Positions 49,039 to 58,777 of a stretch of DNA of 64,000 bases are shown piece after piece. This stretch comes from Armatimonadota bacterium (GTDB lineage Bacteria > Armatimonadota > HRBIN16), in assembly GCA_026003175.1 (NCBI GenBank), contig BPGT01000001.1, positions 310,001 to 374,000 on the forward strand, written 5' to 3'. Position 1 is the stretch's first letter; each line of letters begins with the position of its first letter. A model generated the notes under the pieces. It had not been told where the DNA came from and searched no databases. It worked only from the letters and a program-made list of their open reading frames with translations. The position numbers and the translations under genes were made by a program.

Positions 49039-49224
49039 GAGGGTGTTCGAGAATTGTTGAGAAGTTGGTTGTAGCGCAAGGAGAGAGGCGTTCTTGCTAT
49101 CCCTGCCTTACCTCACCCCCGTCCCCTCTCCTACGAGGAGAGGGGCGTTCCCCCTTCCCTTGCAGGGAAGGGGGCAAGGGGGTTAGGTTATCTATCCATT
49201 CAACCAGCAATTTCGAACACCCTC
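49039..49224 (+). mobile_element. 186-bp MITE, copy C
   Basis: Same ends and interior as copy A. Nine-base target duplication AAAAACGCT (left copy ends at 49038, right copy 49225-49233). The empty site survives in the second module copy (AAAAACGCTTGACAAAC at 54624-54640), which confirms the insertion borders. Confidence 0.95.
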
Positions 49225-49232
49225 AAAAACGC

Positions 49233-49262
49233 TTGACAAACATTGCACATCAGGTATATACT
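49233..49262 (+). promoter_or_regulatory. Promoter of metalloprotease copy 1
   Basis: TTGACA, 18-base spacer, TATACT. The MITE with its target duplication ends on the first T of the -35. A leader of about 40 bases leads to the GTG at 49311. Confidence 0.85.
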
Positions 49263-49310
49263 GCAAGTAAGCCTGTGGAACAGGCGATGGACGAAGGGAG
49301 GTTATTCAAG

Positions 49311-51370
49311 GTGTCTTGCAAAGCACGTTTTTCTACCCCCCCCTTATCGCCTGGGCAGTTTTAAGTCTGTGCTTGCTGTTGTCTCCCCTGCAAGCGCAAG
49401 ACCTGCACATCACCCTGCTCAACGGCGACTGCGACGGCGATAACGAAGTGACCCTCTTGGACTTCGGCATTGTGGTGAACGCTTTCGGGAGCACACCGAA
49501 TGACCCCAACTGGGACCCTCGCGCCGATTTGGGCGGTGATTGTGAAGTGACGCTGTTGGACTACGGCATTGTGGTGCGTAATTTCGGCGCGGTGGGTGCG
49601 GAGCCGTTTGACCCCGCGTTGCCTCGGCAGCCTGCACCGAGTGAGGGGTATCGATTGCACGGGATGATTCGCTTGGAAAAGTGGCAGGGTGGTGAGGTAA
49701 CCGTGCGATTAGAAGCCTACCGTGAAGATGTCCCTGAGCAAGTGGTCTATTACGCTGATTATTCGGTGAGAAGTGACGGCTTCTTCAGCTTATGCTTACC
49801 AGACTCTGGTATGTGGCGGATTGTAGCATACACCACCTCTCCACAGGTGCAACATTTCCTGACCTTAAGCATTCCACATTACCGACAATACCAGAAGGGC
49901 GACCCTATTCAGATTATCGTCTCGGAACCGCTTGGCACAGAGTTGTTCAGCGACTTCCACTCTCCTATACCCATTACTGTTCACTTCTTCGACTATGATG
50001 CGGTTTCCATTACCTCAGCGGATGGTACGGTTCGCCTGACCAACAAAGAACGAGAGAAGTCGTTGAACCTAGGCGTTATGTGGTATGTAGAAGGAGGCGG
50101 CTGGATTGATCAGCATGCACCTGGCTTTGCCGATTACTACCCTGAGCCCCTTCGCCCAGATGAGTTCAGTCGTACGGTCCGTATTGTATGCACGGCGTAT
50201 GACCGAACAAGTATCCCCTCGCGCCGAGACGATGCGATATCAGTAGAAATCACCATCACCCTAATCAAGGTGCCGACCACTCGTGCTATTGTCGGACACA
50301 CGGTATACCACTGGCATGACGGTGCTGGGGTTGAGTCGTCTTTAATCACATCTGGTTTCCACCCTGACGATTCTGTTCGGTTCGCTTGGGTGGTGGATGC
50401 ACCTGCGATGTTACCATGGTACCTGCGATACGTGGAGTGGCTGCAAGTGCCGTGGCACGGGAAGTTGTGGGGAGAACCCAGGGGCGGACTATTTGACACA
50501 TTTCCTATATCGCCAGACGAGGAGCATCGGCGTGTGGAGGTAGAAGTGAGAGCGACCTTTGCCTCTCCCTATCCAGACCCCTGGCTTGGTTTCCAAAACA
50601 CCAAGACCCGTTCACGAGCAGTCACTTTTGCACTCGGCCGCAACGACGAGTTAGAAGATTTCACGCGAGGCTATTCGGCAGCCGGTCTGTGGAACCCACC
50701 GAACTGGTTTGACAACCGACCGGGGCATTGGGGAGCGGTCGTCCCCAGATTCAACGAGATGGACGCCAACTTGGAAGATAGATACGTCGTTTATTATGCG
50801 CCTACTCCATTCATGGGTTTAGGGGATGCGGCGGCAGTGTTTGACTGGAAAGGGGAATTTGCACTGGGATCACGCCGATATCAAGAAAGCTGGCGTGGTC
50901 GCATCTACCTCTTTGGTTTGAACATACTCGCAGCCCACGAAAACGCTCCCACAGCCACCAAGAAACCAGGCTACGGTTTGATTGCTTCTGGTATCGACTG
51001 GCTGGCGACTGTGGTGACGCACGAATTAGCTCATCGTGACTTGTGGCTCGCTTCATGGGGAGGTTTCGACTCCACACATATTGGACAGCCCCCTGACTGG
51101 TATCCTTTCGATCCCGACAAGCCATATGACAAGGATGCGGATGGCATACTAGACAGTTGGGAGGAGCAGCATGGATGGCTCGGCTTAAGTCCTAATGACC
51201 GTTACTCGCTGGAACGGTGGTGGCTTTACGGTGAGAATGCTACAGGCTTGGAGTATTGCACTACTCGAGACGATGAGATGTTTGCGCAGCTATTTGGGGA
51301 GTGGAACGGTCATCTCGTCGGTAGCCTAGACAATCAGGACTGGTCAGCAGGTGGACGACAGGACTACTAA
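49311..51370 (+). CDS. Secreted dockerin-metalloprotease, copy 1 (phase-off frame)
   Basis: About 685 residues if the poly-C tract is in phase. The ribosome site GGGAGG is eight bases before GTG 49311, which reads SCKARFST and then stops, because the C8 tract at 49336 shifts the frame; one more C (or two fewer) joins it to LIAWAVLSLCLLLSPLQAQ, a signal peptide. Next come two dockerin-like calcium repeats (DGDNEVTLLDFGIVVNAFG, GGDCEVTLLDYGIVVRNFG), beta domains, and a zinc-protease motif VVTHELAHRDLWLASWGGF near residue 565, then a calcium loop DKDADGILDSWEEQ. A TTG at 49316 could give low expression in the present state. Confidence 0.8.
49336..49343 (+). repeat. Poly-C tract (C8), candidate phase switch
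   Basis: Eight Cs right after the start region. C6 or C9 would place the well-spaced GTG in frame with the signal peptide and the rest of the protein. Confidence 0.7.
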
Positions 51371-51404
51371 CCAACCACTGTCACGAAAGATCGGAGAAGG
51401 AGCC

Positions 51405-52781
51405 ATGAAAAAATCTTTCGTCTGGATGCCACTCGTCGTGCAATTGTGTGCCTTTGGCTTCGCAGGTGATTCACCTATTAAGGCGAGGTCCAAGTGGGTG
51501 ATGCCAGCTATCTTGTTCAAGCCCACCCCTCACGAGATGGTAGAAATGTATCACCTTGCCCAAAGAGACCCCGCAGCCTTGTTATCCTACCTGGACGAGG
51601 AGTGGCTTGACCGCAAACTGTATGGTGGAACCCCTCCAGATTTCAGCGACGGGTGGCTGCGCTACTACTTGCGCCTGTACGCCGTACGTCTGCTAGGTGA
51701 CAACGCCCCGCCCGAATTAATAGCGCCTCTGGAAGAGTATGCCCAACGGTTCGAGGCACGGGCTAAAGCAGCCAGGGGTATGAGGGAGGACTTGAAACAG
51801 TTCGCGGACGAGGTGCGTTGCGCGTTAGAACGCATCAGATACCGCCTACAGGGACAGGACGCCTACGTGAAAGCGATGATGGAATGGGTACGGACACCAG
51901 AGCCTGTTGAATTGCGTCCGGGAGACAACGTGTATCCCATCTGGCAAAAGGTCGAGGAAGGCGCGCGTGCGCTGGGCGTGTTGCAGGCAAGGGAGGCGGT
52001 GCCGGTGCTGATGGAGCGTGTGTCCTCAGACCGCACCAAAATGTGCGGGCGGGCTCTGGCACGCATTGGAGACAAGCGAGCGATGGAGGTCTTGCGAGAG
52101 TATGTCGGTAGTTGTTTTCCAGAGATTGTGCATGGAGGGCTCTACACGCCACCGCTAGAGCCCGGCGAGCCCGATCCTGCCTGGGTATACTGGCAGATGC
52201 GTACGGAAGGCATGAGCCTGGAGCAGGCAATACTGGAGATCGCTTATGAGTCAAGCAAAGCGAACCTTCGCAAGCGCGATATCCTCGAGTACATCGGTCA
52301 GCCGGCGGTGCCTGTGCTGGTCAAAGTGTTGGAGGACCTGCATAGTCCTGACCATGCCGTTAGTGTTGCCCTTGACGTGCTCATCACGCTGCGTGCGCCA
52401 GAAGCCGCTCGCGCTTTTTTGAACATCCTTCGGCGCGGTCCGTATAAGGCGGACGCAGCGCGCGGACTCGGGTGGCTTGGAGCGCAAGAGGCTTTCGACG
52501 ATCTGCTGGCCGCAGCAAAGCAAGACAGAGACATGAAGTTACGTGTGGCGGCTATCGAAGCTCTCGGACGGTTAGAAGACAAACGTGCCGAGCCACTGCT
52601 GCTAGATCTCGTGGCGCATCCAGACCCAAACATCCGTGTTATCGCTGCTAAGGCGTTGCATCGAGCAGGTACGCCTGCTGCTATCCCCAAGCTAGAACAA
52701 ATCTTGCAAAATGAACCATATCCGGTGATCAGAGGAGCCATGCGTTCGGCGATAAATGTGCTACGCCAAAAAGCACGGTGA
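51405..52781 (+). CDS. Secreted HEAT-repeat protein
   Basis: 458 residues from the ATG at 51405, AAGGAG upstream. Signal peptide MKKSFVWMPLVVQLCAFGFA. The C-terminal 170 residues are HEAT/PBS-lyase-like repeats (AVPVLVKVLEDL, AARGLGWLGAQEAFDDLLAA, VAAIEALGRLEDKRAEPLLL, VIAAKALHRAGTPAAIPKLE). Follows the metalloprotease by 34 bases and is probably co-expressed. Repeats of this type bind proteins, so it may be a partner or substrate of the protease. Related to the gene at 56828 (shared LEPGEPDP and RTEGMSLEQAI). Confidence 0.8.
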   Translation: MKKSFVWMPLVVQLCAFGFAGDSPIKARSKWVMPAILFKPTPHEMVEMYHLAQRDPAALLSYLDEEWLDRKLYGGTPPDFSDGWLRYYLRLYAVRLLGDNAPPELIAPLEEYAQRFEARAKAARGMREDLKQFADEVRCALERIRYRLQGQDAYVKAMMEWVRTPEPVELRPGDNVYPIWQKVEEGARALGVLQAREAVPVLMERVSSDRTKMCGRALARIGDKRAMEVLREYVGSCFPEIVHGGLYTPPLEPGEPDPAWVYWQMRTEGMSLEQAILEIAYESSKANLRKRDILEYIGQPAVPVLVKVLEDLHSPDHAVSVALDVLITLRAPEAARAFLNILRRGPYKADAARGLGWLGAQEAFDDLLAAAKQDRDMKLRVAAIEALGRLEDKRAEPLLLDLVAHPDPNIRVIAAKALHRAGTPAAIPKLEQILQNEPYPVIRGAMRSAINVLRQKAR

Positions 52782-52814
52782 CCTGCGCCGAGCAGCGATA
52801 AGGAGGAAACTAAA

Positions 52815-54215
52815 ATGAGACGCAAAGCGCTGTTCGCCATCGCTTTATGCCCGCTACTTGCATCGGTGATGATGGCGGACTTGCCTCAGCCCAAAGACCC
52901 TCTGGTGATGCCCGCTATCGCTCTACGGCAGACGCCAGCACAGTGGGTGCGTATCTACCGCGAGTCCGAGAAAGACCCCGCTACACTCTTGCGCTACCTG
53001 CACGAGCACATCCGCTTCGTCAGCACACGCCAAAGCGCTCCGGTGGTAGAACCGCTTTCTGACCCTAAAGGTATCTTTCAACTTGAGACCCGAACGTATG
53101 TGTTCAACCGGTTAGGGGACGTGGGCACACCCGACCTGATACCCGCGATAGAGCAGTTTATTCAGCGCAGAAGGGAGATGAACGACTGGGCAACGAACTC
53201 AGACGTGGCATTGGCGCAGTTGAGCATAGAGCGCATTCAGGCTCGCGCGAGGGGTCCGGAGGCTTATAAGAACAAGATGCTGGACTGGGTCAGAAACCCA
53301 ACAAGCTATGCTGACTCGGTAGATGCAAACGGAGGGCCCAACGCCATGGCAGTGAAGCGTCTCGGTTATGGTGTTCGGGCTTTAGCGGTGATAGGTGCCA
53401 GCGATACAGTGCCGCTTATCTTAGAGGCAATACAGGAAGTAGACAAAAAGATGCCCAGAATAGTCTGGCTCTTTAGTCGTCCCCGGGTCATCCACTGGCT
53501 GGCGCAGTTCGAGGACGCGAGCCTTGTGGAGGAGCTGCGGAAGAGTTTTTTCTCTTATGGCACGACGACGCCTTTCTCGACCTACCATCTGGAACCGGGG
53601 GAGAAGGACCCTATCTGGTTGTACTGGCAGATCCGCACTAGAGGAATGGATATTGCCCAAACCGTGAGAGTAATGTTAGAAGCAGCTGGAGGTGAGGGAC
53701 CTCGCAGAATGGTTAGTCGGGTCATGGGATGCCTAGATGAAGCCGCGGTCCCGCCTCTTTTGAAGTGTATAGCGGCGCCCCCCGTTTGCAGTGACCCCGA
53801 ATCTGCACAAGCGGAGGCGATCTCAGCGGTAGGGCAGATTGGCAGCAAGTCTGCCGTTACAATGTTGTGCCATGTGCTGGAGACAGGTTCGCCGCGATTG
53901 AAGATCGCAGCCGCTTGCGCACTTGGTAAAATCGGCAACCCAGTGGCTTTGCCTGACCTGCTGAAGCTGGCACAGAGCAGCGACTTTTACCTCCAGATGG
54001 CGGCGATTGATGCTCTGGGCAACATGGGGGACAGTCGTGCGGAGCCGGTGTTATTGAAACTGCTGAGCGAACACCCCAACAACAACATCCGCTACGGGGC
54101 GGCAGGGGCGCTGGCAAAGGTCGGCACCTCTGCAGCGATACCGGTGCTGGAGGGGCGGTTACAGGTGGAGTCTTCGCGGAGCGAGGGTGTTCGAAATTGC
54201 TGGTTGAATGGATAG
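52815..54215 (+). CDS. Secreted HEAT-repeat protein, C-terminus cut by MITE
   Basis: 466 residues as read. Signal peptide MRRKALFAIALCPLLASVMM; GAGGA before the ATG. Ends in HEAT repeats (KIAAACALGKIGNPVALPDL, MAAIDALGNMGDSRAEPVLL). After ESSRS the frame enters MITE copy D and stops after EGVRNCWLNG. Without the MITE and one target copy it would continue VQGRIGWALRRLRQK, like the LRQKAR and LRQRAR ends of its relatives, and run about 30 residues further. The loss is small, so the protein may still fold. Confidence 0.82.
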   Translation: MRRKALFAIALCPLLASVMMADLPQPKDPLVMPAIALRQTPAQWVRIYRESEKDPATLLRYLHEHIRFVSTRQSAPVVEPLSDPKGIFQLETRTYVFNRLGDVGTPDLIPAIEQFIQRRREMNDWATNSDVALAQLSIERIQARARGPEAYKNKMLDWVRNPTSYADSVDANGGPNAMAVKRLGYGVRALAVIGASDTVPLILEAIQEVDKKMPRIVWLFSRPRVIHWLAQFEDASLVEELRKSFFSYGTTTPFSTYHLEPGEKDPIWLYWQIRTRGMDIAQTVRVMLEAAGGEGPRRMVSRVMGCLDEAAVPPLLKCIAAPPVCSDPESAQAEAISAVGQIGSKSAVTMLCHVLETGSPRLKIAAACALGKIGNPVALPDLLKLAQSSDFYLQMAAIDALGNMGDSRAEPVLLKLLSEHPNNNIRYGAAGALAKVGTSAAIPVLEGRLQVESSRSEGVRNCWLNG

Positions 54216-54368
54216 ATAACCTAACCCCCTTGCCCCCTTCCCTGCAAGGGAAGGGGGAACGCCCCTCTCCTCGTAGGAGAGGGGACGGGGGTGAGGTAAG
54301 GCAGGGATAGCAAGAACGCCTCTCTCCTTGCGCTACAACCAACTTCTCAACAATTCTCGAACACCCTC
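54183..54368 (-). mobile_element. 186-bp MITE, copy D, inside a HEAT gene
   Basis: Nine-base target duplication TCGCGGAGC (54174-54182 and 54369-54377). The only insertion event in the window that hit a coding region. The same insertion is present in the second module (copy E), so it happened before the duplication or was copied by gene conversion. Confidence 0.92.
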
Positions 54369-54498: not shown

Positions 54499-54669
54499 AT
54501 GCCTGACTTCACCGTGGTTGCCATGCCTCAAAGGAAGCGTATCGCGCTGGTGGCGCACGACCACAAGAAGGCGGACTTGCTGGAGTGGGTGCGCTTCAAT
54601 CGCGATCTGCTGGCGCGTTTACTAAAAACGCTTGACAAACATTGCACATCAGGTATATACTGCAAGTAA
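54499..54669 (+). pseudogene. mgsA, truncated duplicate
   Basis: Begins [20 protein letters not shown] and matches the intact gene at 58908 for about 118 bases, to RDLLA. It then runs into unrelated sequence and the promoter of unit 2 and stops at 54669. The active site is absent, so it is nonfunctional. It marks the junction of the tandem duplication. Confidence 0.9.
54632..54661 (+). promoter_or_regulatory. Promoter of metalloprotease copy 2
   Basis: TTGACA, 18-base spacer, TATACT, identical to the copy 1 promoter but without a MITE. It lies inside the 3' end of the truncated mgsA frame. Confidence 0.85.
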
Positions 54670-54709: not shown

Positions 54710-56792
54710 ATGTCTTGCAAATCACGCTTTTCTACCCCCCCTTATCGCCTGGGCAGTTTTAAGTCTGTGCTTGCTGTTGTCTCCCCTGCAAGCGCAAGAC
54801 CTGCACATCACCCTGCTCAACGGCGACTGCGACGGCGATAACGAAGTGACCCTCTTGGACTTCGGCATTGTGGTGAACGCTTTCGGGAGCACACCGAATG
54901 ACCCCAACTGGGACCCTCGCGCCGATTTGGGCGGTGATTGTGAAGTGACGCTGTTGGACTACGGCATTGTGGTGCGTAATTTCGGCGCGGTGGGTGCGGA
55001 GCCGTTTGACCCCGCGTTGCCTCGGCAGCCTGCACCGAGTGAGGGGTATCAGATACGAGGGATGCTTAAACTGCAAGAATGGAGAGGGGTGCCTCTCACT
55101 GTGCGTTTGGAAGCCTGCAAGCAAAATGCCTCCCAACCAGCCGTGTACTGCAAAGAGTTCGTGGTGGACGGAGAAAGCTTGTTCACTTTGCACCTGCCGG
55201 ACTCCGGCCCGTGGGCTGTATTAGCGCAGGTTACATCAGGAAATAGCGGTTTCCTGCACTTGAAGCCGGTACATCCTCGAGGCTACAGAGAAGGCAGCCC
55301 CATACAGGTCACTGTCGTCGAGCCCCCGACGCACGAGGTGTTTAGCGTCTTTCACACACCAATAACCCTTCGCCTCAGAATCGTTGACTATGACGAGGTT
55401 TTTATCGTGTCAGCCGACGGCACTGCACGTTTTGTCAACCAAGAGCGCGAACAGTCAAAAAACTTTCGTGTTTTCTGGCACGTCGTGGAGGGCGGTGGCG
55501 AAGTAGACCCCCGCCCAGGCTCTGGCTTCATAGCAGACTACTACCCGGAAATCTTTGATGAGTTTTCGCAGCAAGTGCGCATCCAGTGCACGGTGTTCGA
55601 TTGGAGTGACGTTCCGGCTCGCCGCGATGCACCTGTGTCCGTAACCATCGACCTGACCCTGCTGAAGGTTCCGACTATCCGCACTATCGCAGGTCACTCG
55701 GTCGGCGTCGGGGGAACCACGAGTGCTTCACTGACTACCTCCGGTTTCCACCCTGACGATTCTGTTCGGTTCGCTTGGGTGGTGGATGCACCTGCGATGT
55801 TACCATGGTACCTGCGATACGTGGAGTGGCTGCAAGTGCCGTGGCACGGGAAGTTGTGGGGAGAACCCAAGGGCAGACTATTTGACACATTTCCTATATC
55901 GCCAGACGAGGAGCATCGGCGTGTGGAGGTAGAAGTGAGAGCGACCTTTGCCTCTCCCTATCCAGACCCCTGGCTTGGTTTCCAAAACACCAAGACCCGT
56001 TCACGAGCAGTCACTTTTGCACTCGGCCGCAACGACGAGGTAGAAGATTTCACGCGAGGCTATTCGGCAGCCGGTCTGTGGAACCCACCGAACTGGTTTG
56101 ACAACCGACCGGGGCATTGGGGAGCGGTCGTCCCCAGATTCAACGAGATGGACGCCAACTTGGAAGATAGATACGTCGTTTATTATGCGCCTACTCCATT
56201 CATGGGTTTAGGGGATGCGGCGGCAGTGTTTGACTGGAAAGGGGAATTTGCACTGGGATCACGCCGATATCAAGAAAGCTGGCGTGGTCGCATCTACCTC
56301 TTTGGTTTGAACATACTCGCAGCCCACGAAAACGCTCCCACAGCCACCAAGAAACCAGGCTACGGTTTGATTGCCTCTGGTATCGACTGGCTGGCGACTG
56401 TGGTGACGCATGAATTAGCTCATCGTGACTTGTGGCTCGCTTCATGGGGAGGTTTCTCGGCAGAGCACATCGAGTGGTTTGGGGAATGGCGCCCCTTTAA
56501 CAAGAGAGCAAGGTTTTGGGATCCTGACAAGCAAGAGTGGGTGTACTACGACGAGGACGGAGATGGCGTTCCTAGCGATTTCGAACGCGCACATCGTTCC
56601 CTCGGTTTTCATCATCAAGATCCCTGTGCAATAGAGCGATGGTGGTTGTACGGTAGGGAATCCCCAGGTCCGGAAGTCTGTACAACTAACGACACAGAGA
56701 TGTTTGCACAGCTGTATGGAGAATGGAATGGTTACACTATCGGCAGCCTAGATGGTCAGGACTGGTCGGAGAACGGCCGTCAGGATTATTAG
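54710..56792 (+). CDS. Secreted dockerin-metalloprotease, copy 2 (phase-off frame)
   Basis: About 690 residues if in phase. The ATG at 54710 has GGGAGG eight bases upstream; it reads MSCKSRFSTPPYRLGSFKSV and runs out of frame because the tract has C7, so it needs one C fewer or two more to reach the signal peptide LIAWAVLSLCLLLSPLQAQ. Dockerin-like repeats, a divergent beta domain (residues about 90-340), and a C-terminal half nearly identical to copy 1 with VVTHELAHRDLWLASWGGF. The last 100 residues differ (DEDGDGVPSDFERAHRSLGF), again with a calcium-loop. Its tract differs from copy 1, so the two could switch independently. Confidence 0.8.
54735..54741 (+). repeat. Poly-C tract (C7), candidate phase switch
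   Basis: Same place as in copy 1 but one base shorter. The length difference between otherwise almost identical copies shows that the tract changes. Confidence 0.7.
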
Positions 56793-56827
56793 ATCACATA
56801 CATTATGCACACGAGGAGGGACTGAAG

Positions 56828-58288
56828 GTGAAGACGTTTTGGACATGGATACCTGTGGTCGCACTGATGTGCGCAGATATGCACGCGTCACAATCTCCCC
56901 TCAAGGCGCGGGATAAGCTGGCGTTGCCAGCCTTCATCCTGCGCCCGACCCCGAAGCAGTGGATACAGATATACCACCTTTCGGAAAATAACCCTTCTGC
57001 GCTACTACTATATCTGGACGATCATTTCCTGGCGCGAGAAGTGCCGGGCGATGACAGCGAGGCCGAGCAATTTCGTGCGTTAATACGCTGGTACGTTTTA
57101 CAACGCATCGGTGACGTAGCCCCTCCCGGCTGGATACCCCGTTTGGAGGAATACTTCTCAGAGTACGAAGAACAAGCTGCACAAGCTCCACAATACAAAC
57201 GGCAGATTTTCGAGGGCAGAGCAGATGACGTCCGCCTGACTATCGAGCGCATTCGCCTCCGCTCTAAAGGCAGGGATGATTATGTACGTGCGATGATAGA
57301 GTGGGTGCAATCGCCCGAACCGCCGCTGATGATGCCCTGGCGGGAGAAGGAGTTCCTGTGGCGACGCATGTGGTATGGGGCGCGTGCCTTAGCTATCTTG
57401 AAAGCACGCGAGGGAGTACCGGCGTTAGCGGAGCGATGTACACAGGGGATCGCCAGTTTTATCGGTATAGACGGCTTCTACGCACGTGCTCTGGCTCGCA
57501 TCGGTGACCAGCGCAGTTTGAAAGCACTACGCGAGTACCTTGCGCGGTCTGTCCCATGGCCCCCTAACATTTGTACTATCGTGCCTCTGGAGCCCGGCGA
57601 GCCCGACCCGGTCTGGGCATACTGGCAGACGCGTACGGAAGGCATGAGCCTGGAGCAGGCGATATGGGAGGTTATTCGCACGTGCGAGAGAGAGGTGAAA
57701 GTCTTCCGGCATGACCCCCCGATCACTCTGCCATGGGGAAGTCGGGCTTCCGAGTCTCGTTTTGTCACAAAACTATACTACGATGAGATACTGGAATACA
57801 TTGGCAAGCCTGTGGTTCCCATTCTCATCAAGGTGTTAGAGGATGCGAATAGTTCTGTAGAGGCAATCAGCCTGGCATTAAAGATTTTGCCCAAGTTGCA
57901 GGCGGTAGAAGCGATACAAACGATACGGAAATGGCTGCATGGTCCCTTCAGGAACGATGCGGCATACGCTCTGGGGAGGCTAAGGGCCAGGGAAGCGGTC
58001 GATGATTTGATAGCCGCGCTTCAGCGGGACAGCAGCCGCTCGTTTAAGATGAGCGCGGTTGAGGCGCTGGGAGAGATAGGTGACCCCCGCGCTGAGCCCC
58101 TTCTAGTCTCAATGGCAACGGAGGACGCCGATGAAAACGTCCGCTTTGTTGCGGTTAACGTTCTGGCTAAGGTAGGTTCGTCTGCCACGATCCCTGTGCT
58201 GGAACAAAGACTCCAGAGCGAGCCAGTAGATGCGGTTAAAGCTCGGATCCGAGTCACACTGGAGGCACTGCGGCAAAGGGCACGGTGA
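56828..58288 (+). CDS. Secreted HEAT-repeat protein
   Basis: 486 residues from the GTG at 56828, with GAGGAGGG upstream. Signal peptide KTFWTWIPVVALMCADMHAS. HEAT repeats in the C-terminal third (AISLALKILPKLQAVEAIQT, DAAYALGRLRAREAVDDLIA, MSAVEALGEIGDPRAEPLLV, VAVNVLAKVGSSATIPVLEQ), ending LEALRQRAR. Homologous to the 51405 gene and in the matching place after protease copy 2. Confidence 0.8.
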   Translation: MKTFWTWIPVVALMCADMHASQSPLKARDKLALPAFILRPTPKQWIQIYHLSENNPSALLLYLDDHFLAREVPGDDSEAEQFRALIRWYVLQRIGDVAPPGWIPRLEEYFSEYEEQAAQAPQYKRQIFEGRADDVRLTIERIRLRSKGRDDYVRAMIEWVQSPEPPLMMPWREKEFLWRRMWYGARALAILKAREGVPALAERCTQGIASFIGIDGFYARALARIGDQRSLKALREYLARSVPWPPNICTIVPLEPGEPDPVWAYWQTRTEGMSLEQAIWEVIRTCEREVKVFRHDPPITLPWGSRASESRFVTKLYYDEILEYIGKPVVPILIKVLEDANSSVEAISLALKILPKLQAVEAIQTIRKWLHGPFRNDAAYALGRLRAREAVDDLIAALQRDSSRSFKMSAVEALGEIGDPRAEPLLVSMATEDADENVRFVAVNVLAKVGSSATIPVLEQRLQSEPVDAVKARIRVTLEALRQRAR

Positions 58289-58306
58289 CGTGAAGGGTGC
58301 CAGCGT

Positions 58307-58624
58307 GTGGTCAAGGCAGCGGTAGAGGTACTTGGCAAAATCGGCGACCCAGTGGCTTTGCCTGACCTGCTGGAGCTGGCACAGAGCAGCGACTTTTACC
58401 TCCAGATGGCGGCGATTGATGCTCTGGGCAACATGGGGGACAGTCGTGCGGAGCCGGTGTTATTGAAACTGCTGAGCGAACACCCCAACAACAACATCCG
58501 CTACGGGGCGGCAGAGGCGCTGGCAAAGGTCGGCACCTCTGCAGCGATACCGGTGCTGGAACGGCGGTTACAGGTGGAGTCTTCGCGGAGCGAGGGTGTT
58601 CGAAATTGCTGGTTGAATGGATAG
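58307..58624 (+). pseudogene. 3' fragment of a second HEAT gene, with MITE copy E
   Basis: About 95 codons nearly identical to the end of the 52815 gene (VALPDLLELAQSSDFYLQMA, MGDSRAEPVLLKLLSEHPNN), including the same MITE insertion and EGVRNCWLNG tail. The first 370 codons, signal peptide and ribosome site are missing, so the second unit lost most of this gene. Confidence 0.8.
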
Positions 58625-58777
58625 ATAACCTAACCCCCTTGCCCCCTTCCCTGCAAGGGAAGGGGGAACGCCCCTCTCCTCGTAGGAGAGGGGACGGGGG
58701 TGAGGTAAGGCAGGGATAGCAAGAACGCCTCTCTCCTTGCGCTACAACCAACTTCTCAACAATTCTCGAACACCCTC
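58592..58777 (-). mobile_element. 186-bp MITE, copy E
   Basis: Identical to copy D with the same target duplication TCGCGGAGC, as part of the duplicated block and not a separate insertion. Confidence 0.92.

Follow-up and report, generated by a model that had tools for sequence, protein, structure and literature searches.

A poly-C tract between the start codon and signal peptide of a secreted dockerin protein, a candidate phase switch among genome-wide C/G tracts in Armatimonadota

Sequence comparison of an Armatimonadota bacterium and its relatives showed a poly-C tract between the Shine-Dalgarno-backed start codon and the signal peptide of a secreted dockerin protein, and the locus is probably best read as a translational contingency locus with slipped-strand phase variation. 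A long homopolymer follows shortly after the start codon of an open frame that is conserved, off-frame lengths lead to an early stop and one length class joins start and frame, and tract length differs between near-identical copies and relatives (C8 and C7 in two neighbouring copies; six species; lengths in the host genome to within one base). A phase switch had been proposed in a first-pass annotation of the same DNA. This is backed by tract lengths between copies and species, three frame states, selection and genome-wide tract placement, but its treatment of a TTG codon and its term "protease" were corrected.

The window, i.e. the whole stretch of 64 kb that was analysed, is G000:C1:310001-374000, where G000 is the host assembly (4.1-Mb genome, 7 contigs). 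The nearest named relatives of the host were Armatimonadota bins, including Bacterium HR16 and a Chthonomonadia bacterium. The features of copy 1 (49233-51370) were as follows, in window coordinates.

49233..49262, + strand: sigma-70-type promoter of copy 1, TTGACA-N18-TATACT (agrees with the consensus at 11 of 12 positions, with 0.2 such matches expected in shuffled sequence)
49296..49301, + strand: Shine-Dalgarno-like GGGAGG, 9 nt ahead of the GTG and 14 nt ahead of the TTG (sequence; GGAGG at 8-9 nt spacing in 17/17 cassettes)
49311..49313, + strand: GTG start, out of frame with the protein at C8 (frame computation; among cassettes ATG in 13/17 and GTG in 4/17)
49316..49318, + strand: TTG in the protein's frame at C8, candidate weak second start (sequence and frames)
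49336..49343, + strand: poly-C tract C8, proposed switch (sequence; C6-C10 or interrupted in other cassettes)
49344..49396, + strand: signal-peptide hydrophobic core and cleavage region, LIAWAVLSLCLLLSPLQA (pN/pS 0.37 in the protein's frame)
49397..51370, + strand: secreted protein copy 1 with N-terminal type I dockerin, Ig-like beta domains and C-terminal HELAH domain (Pfam, model, alignment)

The letters of 49311-49345 are GTGTCTTGCAAAGCACGTTTTTCTACCCCCCCCTT, and the C8 is the sole C or G run of at least 8 within the window. A shorter run, G7, occurs at 1237-1243 inside a frame that by eye resembles ispF. Since the promoter sits at 49233-49262 the leader of copy 1 is short, and no homopolymer run lies between its -35 and -10 elements. 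The GTG frame contains 17 codons and stops at 49362, and the dockerin/HExxH frame, a different one, has 674 codons open beyond the tract. With the GTG held fixed, arithmetic on the sequence showed that only C6 or C9 (multiples of 3) join the start to the signal-peptide frame. The first-pass annotation had described this arrangement correctly, including the out-of-frame GTG and the effect of C6 or C9, a C9 state being found naturally in one relative (G002_C66); GTG, GGGAGG and C8 were all located as claimed, but with a spacer of 9 nt and not eight. Exact tract lengths in G000, including the C8 and C7 of the window, are uncertain by one base because housekeeping genes of this assembly show frame breaks at C8/G8. 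The presence, position and between-assembly variation of the tract are unaffected by this uncertainty.

A second copy of the locus was found 5 kb beyond the first, with the following features.

54632..54661, + strand: promoter of copy 2, identical over 30 bases to the copy 1 promoter
54710..54712, + strand: ATG start of copy 2, out of frame at C7 (sequence, frames)
54735..54741, + strand: poly-C tract C7 of copy 2 (at C7 no ATG, GTG or TTG opens the protein's frame between promoter and tract)
54795..56792, + strand: secreted protein, copy 2, 75% identical to copy 1

In copy 2 the GTG is replaced by ATG and C8 by C7, and the 309 bases behind the tract are identical. The ATG frame at C7 reaches a stop after 43 codons, and copy 2 is out of frame by the opposite step to copy 1. 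The tandem copies of the window are therefore proposed to stand in different switch states. Each dockerin gene is followed by a HEAT-repeat gene (51351-54215 and 56723-58624), the dockerin-HEAT block being a tandem duplication. A 186-nt element was also identified at 49039-49224, 54183-54368 and 58592-58777, the first 100% complementary to the other two (inverted orientation); it flanks the copy 1 block and ends approximately 10 nt ahead of the copy 1 promoter. Judged by its arrangement, the inverted pair could permit inversion of 49225-54182.

The type I dockerin was identified by Pfam (Dockerin_1, PF00404) at 24.1 and 24.4 bits against a cut-off of 22.9, with two calcium-loop repeats. An HExxH motif was found in 11 of the 12 full-length copies of the family, the exception being G002_C66 (HELAE). 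No peptidase family was matched in Pfam at E≤0.1, and PDB sequence matches at E≤1 were to dockerin modules only. Foldseek search with the whole-protein model returned only beta-sandwich matches (cadherin, intimin and invasin domains), in agreement with a long row of beta strands, and search with the C-terminal HELAH part (model pLDDT 64.6) gave no match at E≤0.001. The earlier name "dockerin-metalloprotease" is thus borne out in its dockerin half by Pfam, while the protease half, drawn from an HExxH motif without a peptidase family match, is unproven.

The cassette family was collected by DNA search with the leader and protein search over 10 genomes of the genus, and all 17 cassettes found were aligned and their frames computed; one genome per species was used for between-species comparison. 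The promoter-SD-start-tract-signal-peptide cassette was present in 6 of the 10 genomes, and all 17 cassettes carried a Shine-Dalgarno sequence and an ATG or GTG 8-9 nt apart. The tracts were distributed as follows.

G000, 5 cassettes: C8, C7, TC6, C3TC6, C3AC4
G004, 4 cassettes: C10, C10, C4AC3, one with a 9-base loss
G002, 4 cassettes: C8, C9, C9 plus one T, C3GC4
G001, 2 cassettes: C8, C7
G003, 1 cassette: C6
G009, 1 cassette: AC7

The longest C run per cassette ranged from 4 to 10, with C7-C10 in 10/17, and 6/17 tracts were broken by substitution or otherwise altered. The position of the C8 is not due to chance, because 17 homologous cassettes hold a C-rich tract there while its length changes. 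The start was in frame with the protein in 2/17 cassettes, off by +1 in 6/17 (mod-1 lengths) and by +2 in 9/17 (mod-2 lengths). The two in-frame starts compare with 5.7 expected at one third (P=0.044, for copies that are not independent). Long open frames (650-715 codons from QDLHITLL) follow 12/17 cassettes, 11 of them with the start out of frame, and the remaining 5/17 copies are incomplete, through truncation or a contig end. One in-frame cassette has a TAA inside the signal peptide and a truncated protein, and the other (G002_C66; L091, contig C66, C9), the sole full-length in-frame copy, has HELAE in place of HExxH, leaving no copy among the 17 that is in frame, full length and HExxH-intact at the same time. 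In the six mod-1 full-length copies (4 genomes), the translations showed no start opening the frame between promoter and tract; these copies are expressible only through a change of the tract or misreading since no in-frame start exists.

Substitution patterns showed that the proteins are maintained. dN/dS was computed for 8 pairs, of which 5 had saturated dS (in the whole or the after-dockerin figure), and the three unsaturated pairs (copy 1-copy 2, copy 1-G004_68k and copy 2-G004_68k) gave 0.21-0.31, which indicates that the proteins are under purifying selection. In the signal-peptide stretch (39 nt ending at 49396, 13 distinct sequences), pN/pS was 0.37 in the protein's frame and 0.92 and 7.3 in the other frames. 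With 11 of the 12 genes having an out-of-frame start, and both wrong phases represented, a protein under selection calls for a frame-restoring mechanism. In the segment from start to tract (8 codons, 13 distinct sequences), pN/pS pointed to no purifying selection in the ATG frame (1.20) and to a slight degree of it in the TTG frame (0.72), and was 1.51 in the third frame; its use for discriminating between ATG and TTG was dropped as the segment is too short. Third positions of the two proline codons in the tract vary little, but this holds equally for further fourfold sites common to the copies (12 sites, mean pairwise difference 0.21), for which reason conservation of the tract beyond coding need was set aside.

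The 4.1 Mb of G000 contain only 35 C/G runs of at least 8, where Markov models of the window predict 77-131; as such runs are rarer than predicted, those at starts are no by-product of composition. Runs of this length were classified in G000 (35/35), G001 (20/21) and G002 (23/24), taking one tract per run and leaving out two at contig ends (G001:C65:14 and G002:C62:7). Under the rule used, a run had to lie either ≤125 nt past an ATG or GTG that has a Shine-Dalgarno sequence and opens at least 120 codons, or in the spacer between the TTGAC and TANNWT elements of a promoter. This was the case for 43/78 runs (19/35 in G000, 12/20 in G001 and 12/23 in G002) versus 42/467 runs of 5-6 in the same loci (Fisher p=2e-19); by eye, this mechanical rule includes probable false positives (L134, L185, L196, L176) and misses likely loci (L152, L163, L172, L197). 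Applied to two further Armatimonadota genomes, the rule picked out 3/15 (p=0.022 against 43/78). Orthologous tracts in different species are of unequal length and frame. In two genomes taken as short-read assemblies, many tracts are close to a contig end, but contig breaks were dropped as evidence of polymorphism: the paired ends have longer identical stretches in common, so that it is paralogous repeats at which the assembly breaks.

Promoter-spacer tracts accounted for 15/78 runs of at least 8 and 0/467 runs of 5-6. Here a homopolymer of variable length lies between the -35 and -10 elements, and near-identical promoters with G8, G9, G10 or G11, of the form TTGACA-C-G8..G11-ACAGAG-TAGAAT, have spacers of 15-18. 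The loci, all with poly-G of 8-11 ahead of small secreted-looking genes, were as follows.

G000: L141, L144, L149, L150, L156, L157
G001: L166, L169, L171, L173, L182
G002: L184, L192, L202, L203

From their layout these loci are candidate promoter phase switches. The six G000 genes had no Pfam match, and their N-termini are signal-peptide-like by eye. Within the genus, search with the promoter-type pattern gave 21 places in 6/10 genomes and the reversed pattern none. Over 201 genomes there were 53 matches, 36 of them outside the genus (about 33 distinct places) versus 8 control matches, an excess by count. The start-type poly-G pattern gave 49 matches in 121 phylum genomes, 45 of them outside the genus versus 31 reversed-pattern control matches, with no clear excess over the control. 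The class level consists of this genus only and so adds no breadth.

Pfam assigned the start-type genes of G000 to RHS-repeat proteins with or without dockerin (L139, L152), TPR repeats (L159), Big_1/invasin domains (L160) and fn3 with a sub-threshold dockerin (L153), with no Pfam match for 4/10. The domains and N-termini point to mostly secreted or surface proteins as the targets of N-terminal and promoter tracts. At L132, two starts in two frames (ATG AAA G ATG) precede a G9 tract. Paralogs at L131, L160 and L163 (G000) and L170, L175, L177 and L205 (G001) share a signal peptide of identical type, behind which comes a G8-G10 run, and differ in frame. Poly-G was also seen at the 3' ends of genes (L137, L176, L140, L199, L200): a G9 run ends a sigma-70 region-4 protein at L137, and at L176 the frame continues into the next gene. 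Depending on the frame, translation would either terminate at such a tract or continue past it, which may amount to C-terminal switching. In another Armatimonadota genome (G029), a repeated N-terminus, MANHNKRNKKLQQGEGSV, is followed by C8, C9 and two C14 tracts (L211, L212, L217), a possible contingency family in a second lineage, judging by the repeated motif.

In the proposed mechanism, slipped-strand mispairing during replication would add or remove Cs in the tract between the SD-backed start and the signal-peptide core, presumably reversibly and to adaptive benefit. Lengths divisible by three would join the start to the signal-peptide frame, and other lengths would yield only a short peptide, so that expression would change with the tract. 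At a mod-2 length such as the C8 of copy 1, the TTG five bases past the GTG is in frame and may support a low level. Three states are thus proposed, strong ON at C6/C9 (from ATG/GTG), weak ON at C8 (from TTG) and OFF at C7/C10, because 7/9 mod-2 copies are open from the TTG and both full-length, intact-frame copies with a tract broken inside by a substitution are mod-2. The first-pass annotation had dismissed the TTG as a poor start; its distance of 14 nt from the Shine-Dalgarno sequence agrees with this, but as both broken-tract copies with an uninterrupted ORF are in the TTG frame, it is a possible weak-ON start. The locus would be one of the genome-wide poly-C/G switches at starts or promoter spacers of secreted or surface-type proteins.

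A simpler account would make C8 the normal state without any switching, with translation from the TTG at 49316 and the other lengths decayed or misassembled. It draws on the 9/17 cassettes that are in the TTG frame by length, 7 of them open from the TTG through the tract, on two full-length copies with stable interrupted tracts in that same frame (G004_68k, C4AC3; G002_C26, C3GC4), and on the TTG frame having the lowest pre-tract pN/pS of the three. However, the TTG stands 14 nt from the Shine-Dalgarno sequence, whereas ATG/GTG stands at 8-9 nt in every cassette, and the six mod-1 full-length copies, whose proteins are conserved, are unable to use it. A TAA closes the TTG frame in copies 271k and G009, and copy 958k has CTG instead. 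With the genome-wide concentration of long tracts, notably in promoter spacers, also left unexplained, translation from the TTG alone is an unlikely account.

Constant mixed expression from unchanged DNA, with RNA polymerase slipping or ribosomes shifting frame on the C run, would account for selection on the protein in out-of-frame copies, and other systems provide precedents for +1 slippage at CCC-C as well as for slippage of the polymerase on runs. It would nevertheless need both +1 and -1 shifts (6 mod-1 and 9 mod-2 copies), a run of 7-8 C is short for the polymerase to slip on, and the poly-G in promoter spacers is unaccounted for; this explanation is likewise considered improbable. Homopolymer errors of assembly, decaying genes or both, with no biological switching, would be in keeping with the assembly of G000 in 7 large contigs and with the 5/17 family copies that are incomplete. 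They would also fit the frame-broken G000 genes at C8/G8, namely proC (L143), the Sua5 gene (L138, prmC-Sua5) and a polysaccharide flippase (L154), and a ribokinase of G001 (L181) broken at G8; these four breaks are either assembly errors or real mutations/slippage. Against this, six genomes that come from separate projects carry the tract, a Bacterium HR16 record and the metagenome bin CALJAP among them, the placement of 43/78 runs at starts and spacers is unlike random error, and long frames with dN/dS of 0.21-0.31 are not decaying. Error or decay throughout is accordingly rated very improbable. Phase variation by slippage in the tract is the preferred reading.

Several known systems resemble the present one. 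NalP and MspA of Neisseria meningitidis are reportedly secreted or surface autotransporters, NalP being a protease, switched by a homopolymer in the coding sequence, and the likeness lies in a secreted protein with a homopolymer inside its coding sequence; to our knowledge these autotransporters are unrelated in sequence to the window proteins. The PorA promoter of N. meningitidis is said to contain a poly-G that alters expression level, similar to the TTGAC-G8..11-TA(G/T)AAT promoters found here. Unlike PorA, spacer poly-G occurs here in several paralogous promoters of one genome (6 in G000), ahead of genes without a Pfam match. The lic loci of Haemophilus influenzae reportedly have tetranucleotide repeats with start codons in different frames and more than two measured levels of expression. 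Alternative starts in different frames upstream of the repeat are shared (ATG/TTG here, two ATGs in L132), but the repeat here is a homopolymer and the levels are inferred.

In extracts from the report on Helicobacter canadensis, homopolymer tracts are described in promoter regions, at 5' ends and near 3' ends of genes, with read-level length variation in all 29 tracts, mostly G9-G16, and frame-shifted deposited genes (PMC2823697). As far as those extracts go, the present genomes are alike in having tracts at the promoter, the 5' end and possibly the 3' end at about two dozen loci per genome, and differ in having C/G runs of 7-11 whose variation is seen between assemblies (PMC2823697). H. canadensis is a host-associated Epsilonproteobacterium, whereas the present lineage belongs to Armatimonadota known from metagenome bins. 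By analogy, the tract system would function as homopolymer contingency loci do in Helicobacter, Campylobacter and Neisseria. Homopolymers have earlier been reported to be enriched where genes begin (5' ends), in the extracts consulted for A/T runs in general; in contrast, the runs here are C/G runs of at least 8, which are otherwise rare in the genome.

The kind of locus is therefore already known, and its lineage and breadth there are unreported in the open-access literature searched, in which no report of phase variation in Armatimonadota/Armatimonadetes was found, the one match being a paper on lipocone domains. According to extracts from a 2025 review, simple-repeat phase variation has been described mainly in host-associated bacteria, and ocean and soil bacteria are a gap (PMC11868660). 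On balance, we lean towards the view that HRbin16-relative Armatimonadota, which have no known host, carry genome-wide poly-C/G contingency loci (at the start/signal peptide, the promoter spacer and possibly the 3' end) that vary secreted surface proteins (dockerin, RHS-repeat, invasin-type Ig, fn3), some with two starts and three levels. This reading of the tracts as switches is directly testable with existing metagenome reads, and for annotators, "frameshifted" or odd-start genes in these genomes may be switched genes. If true, it would mean that contingency-locus bet hedging has evolved among free-living bacteria that are probably thermophilic, with phages or biofilm niches as possible reasons. 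Contingency loci would then need no immune system to drive them, and the driver might be sought in phage, in competitors or in life on surfaces.
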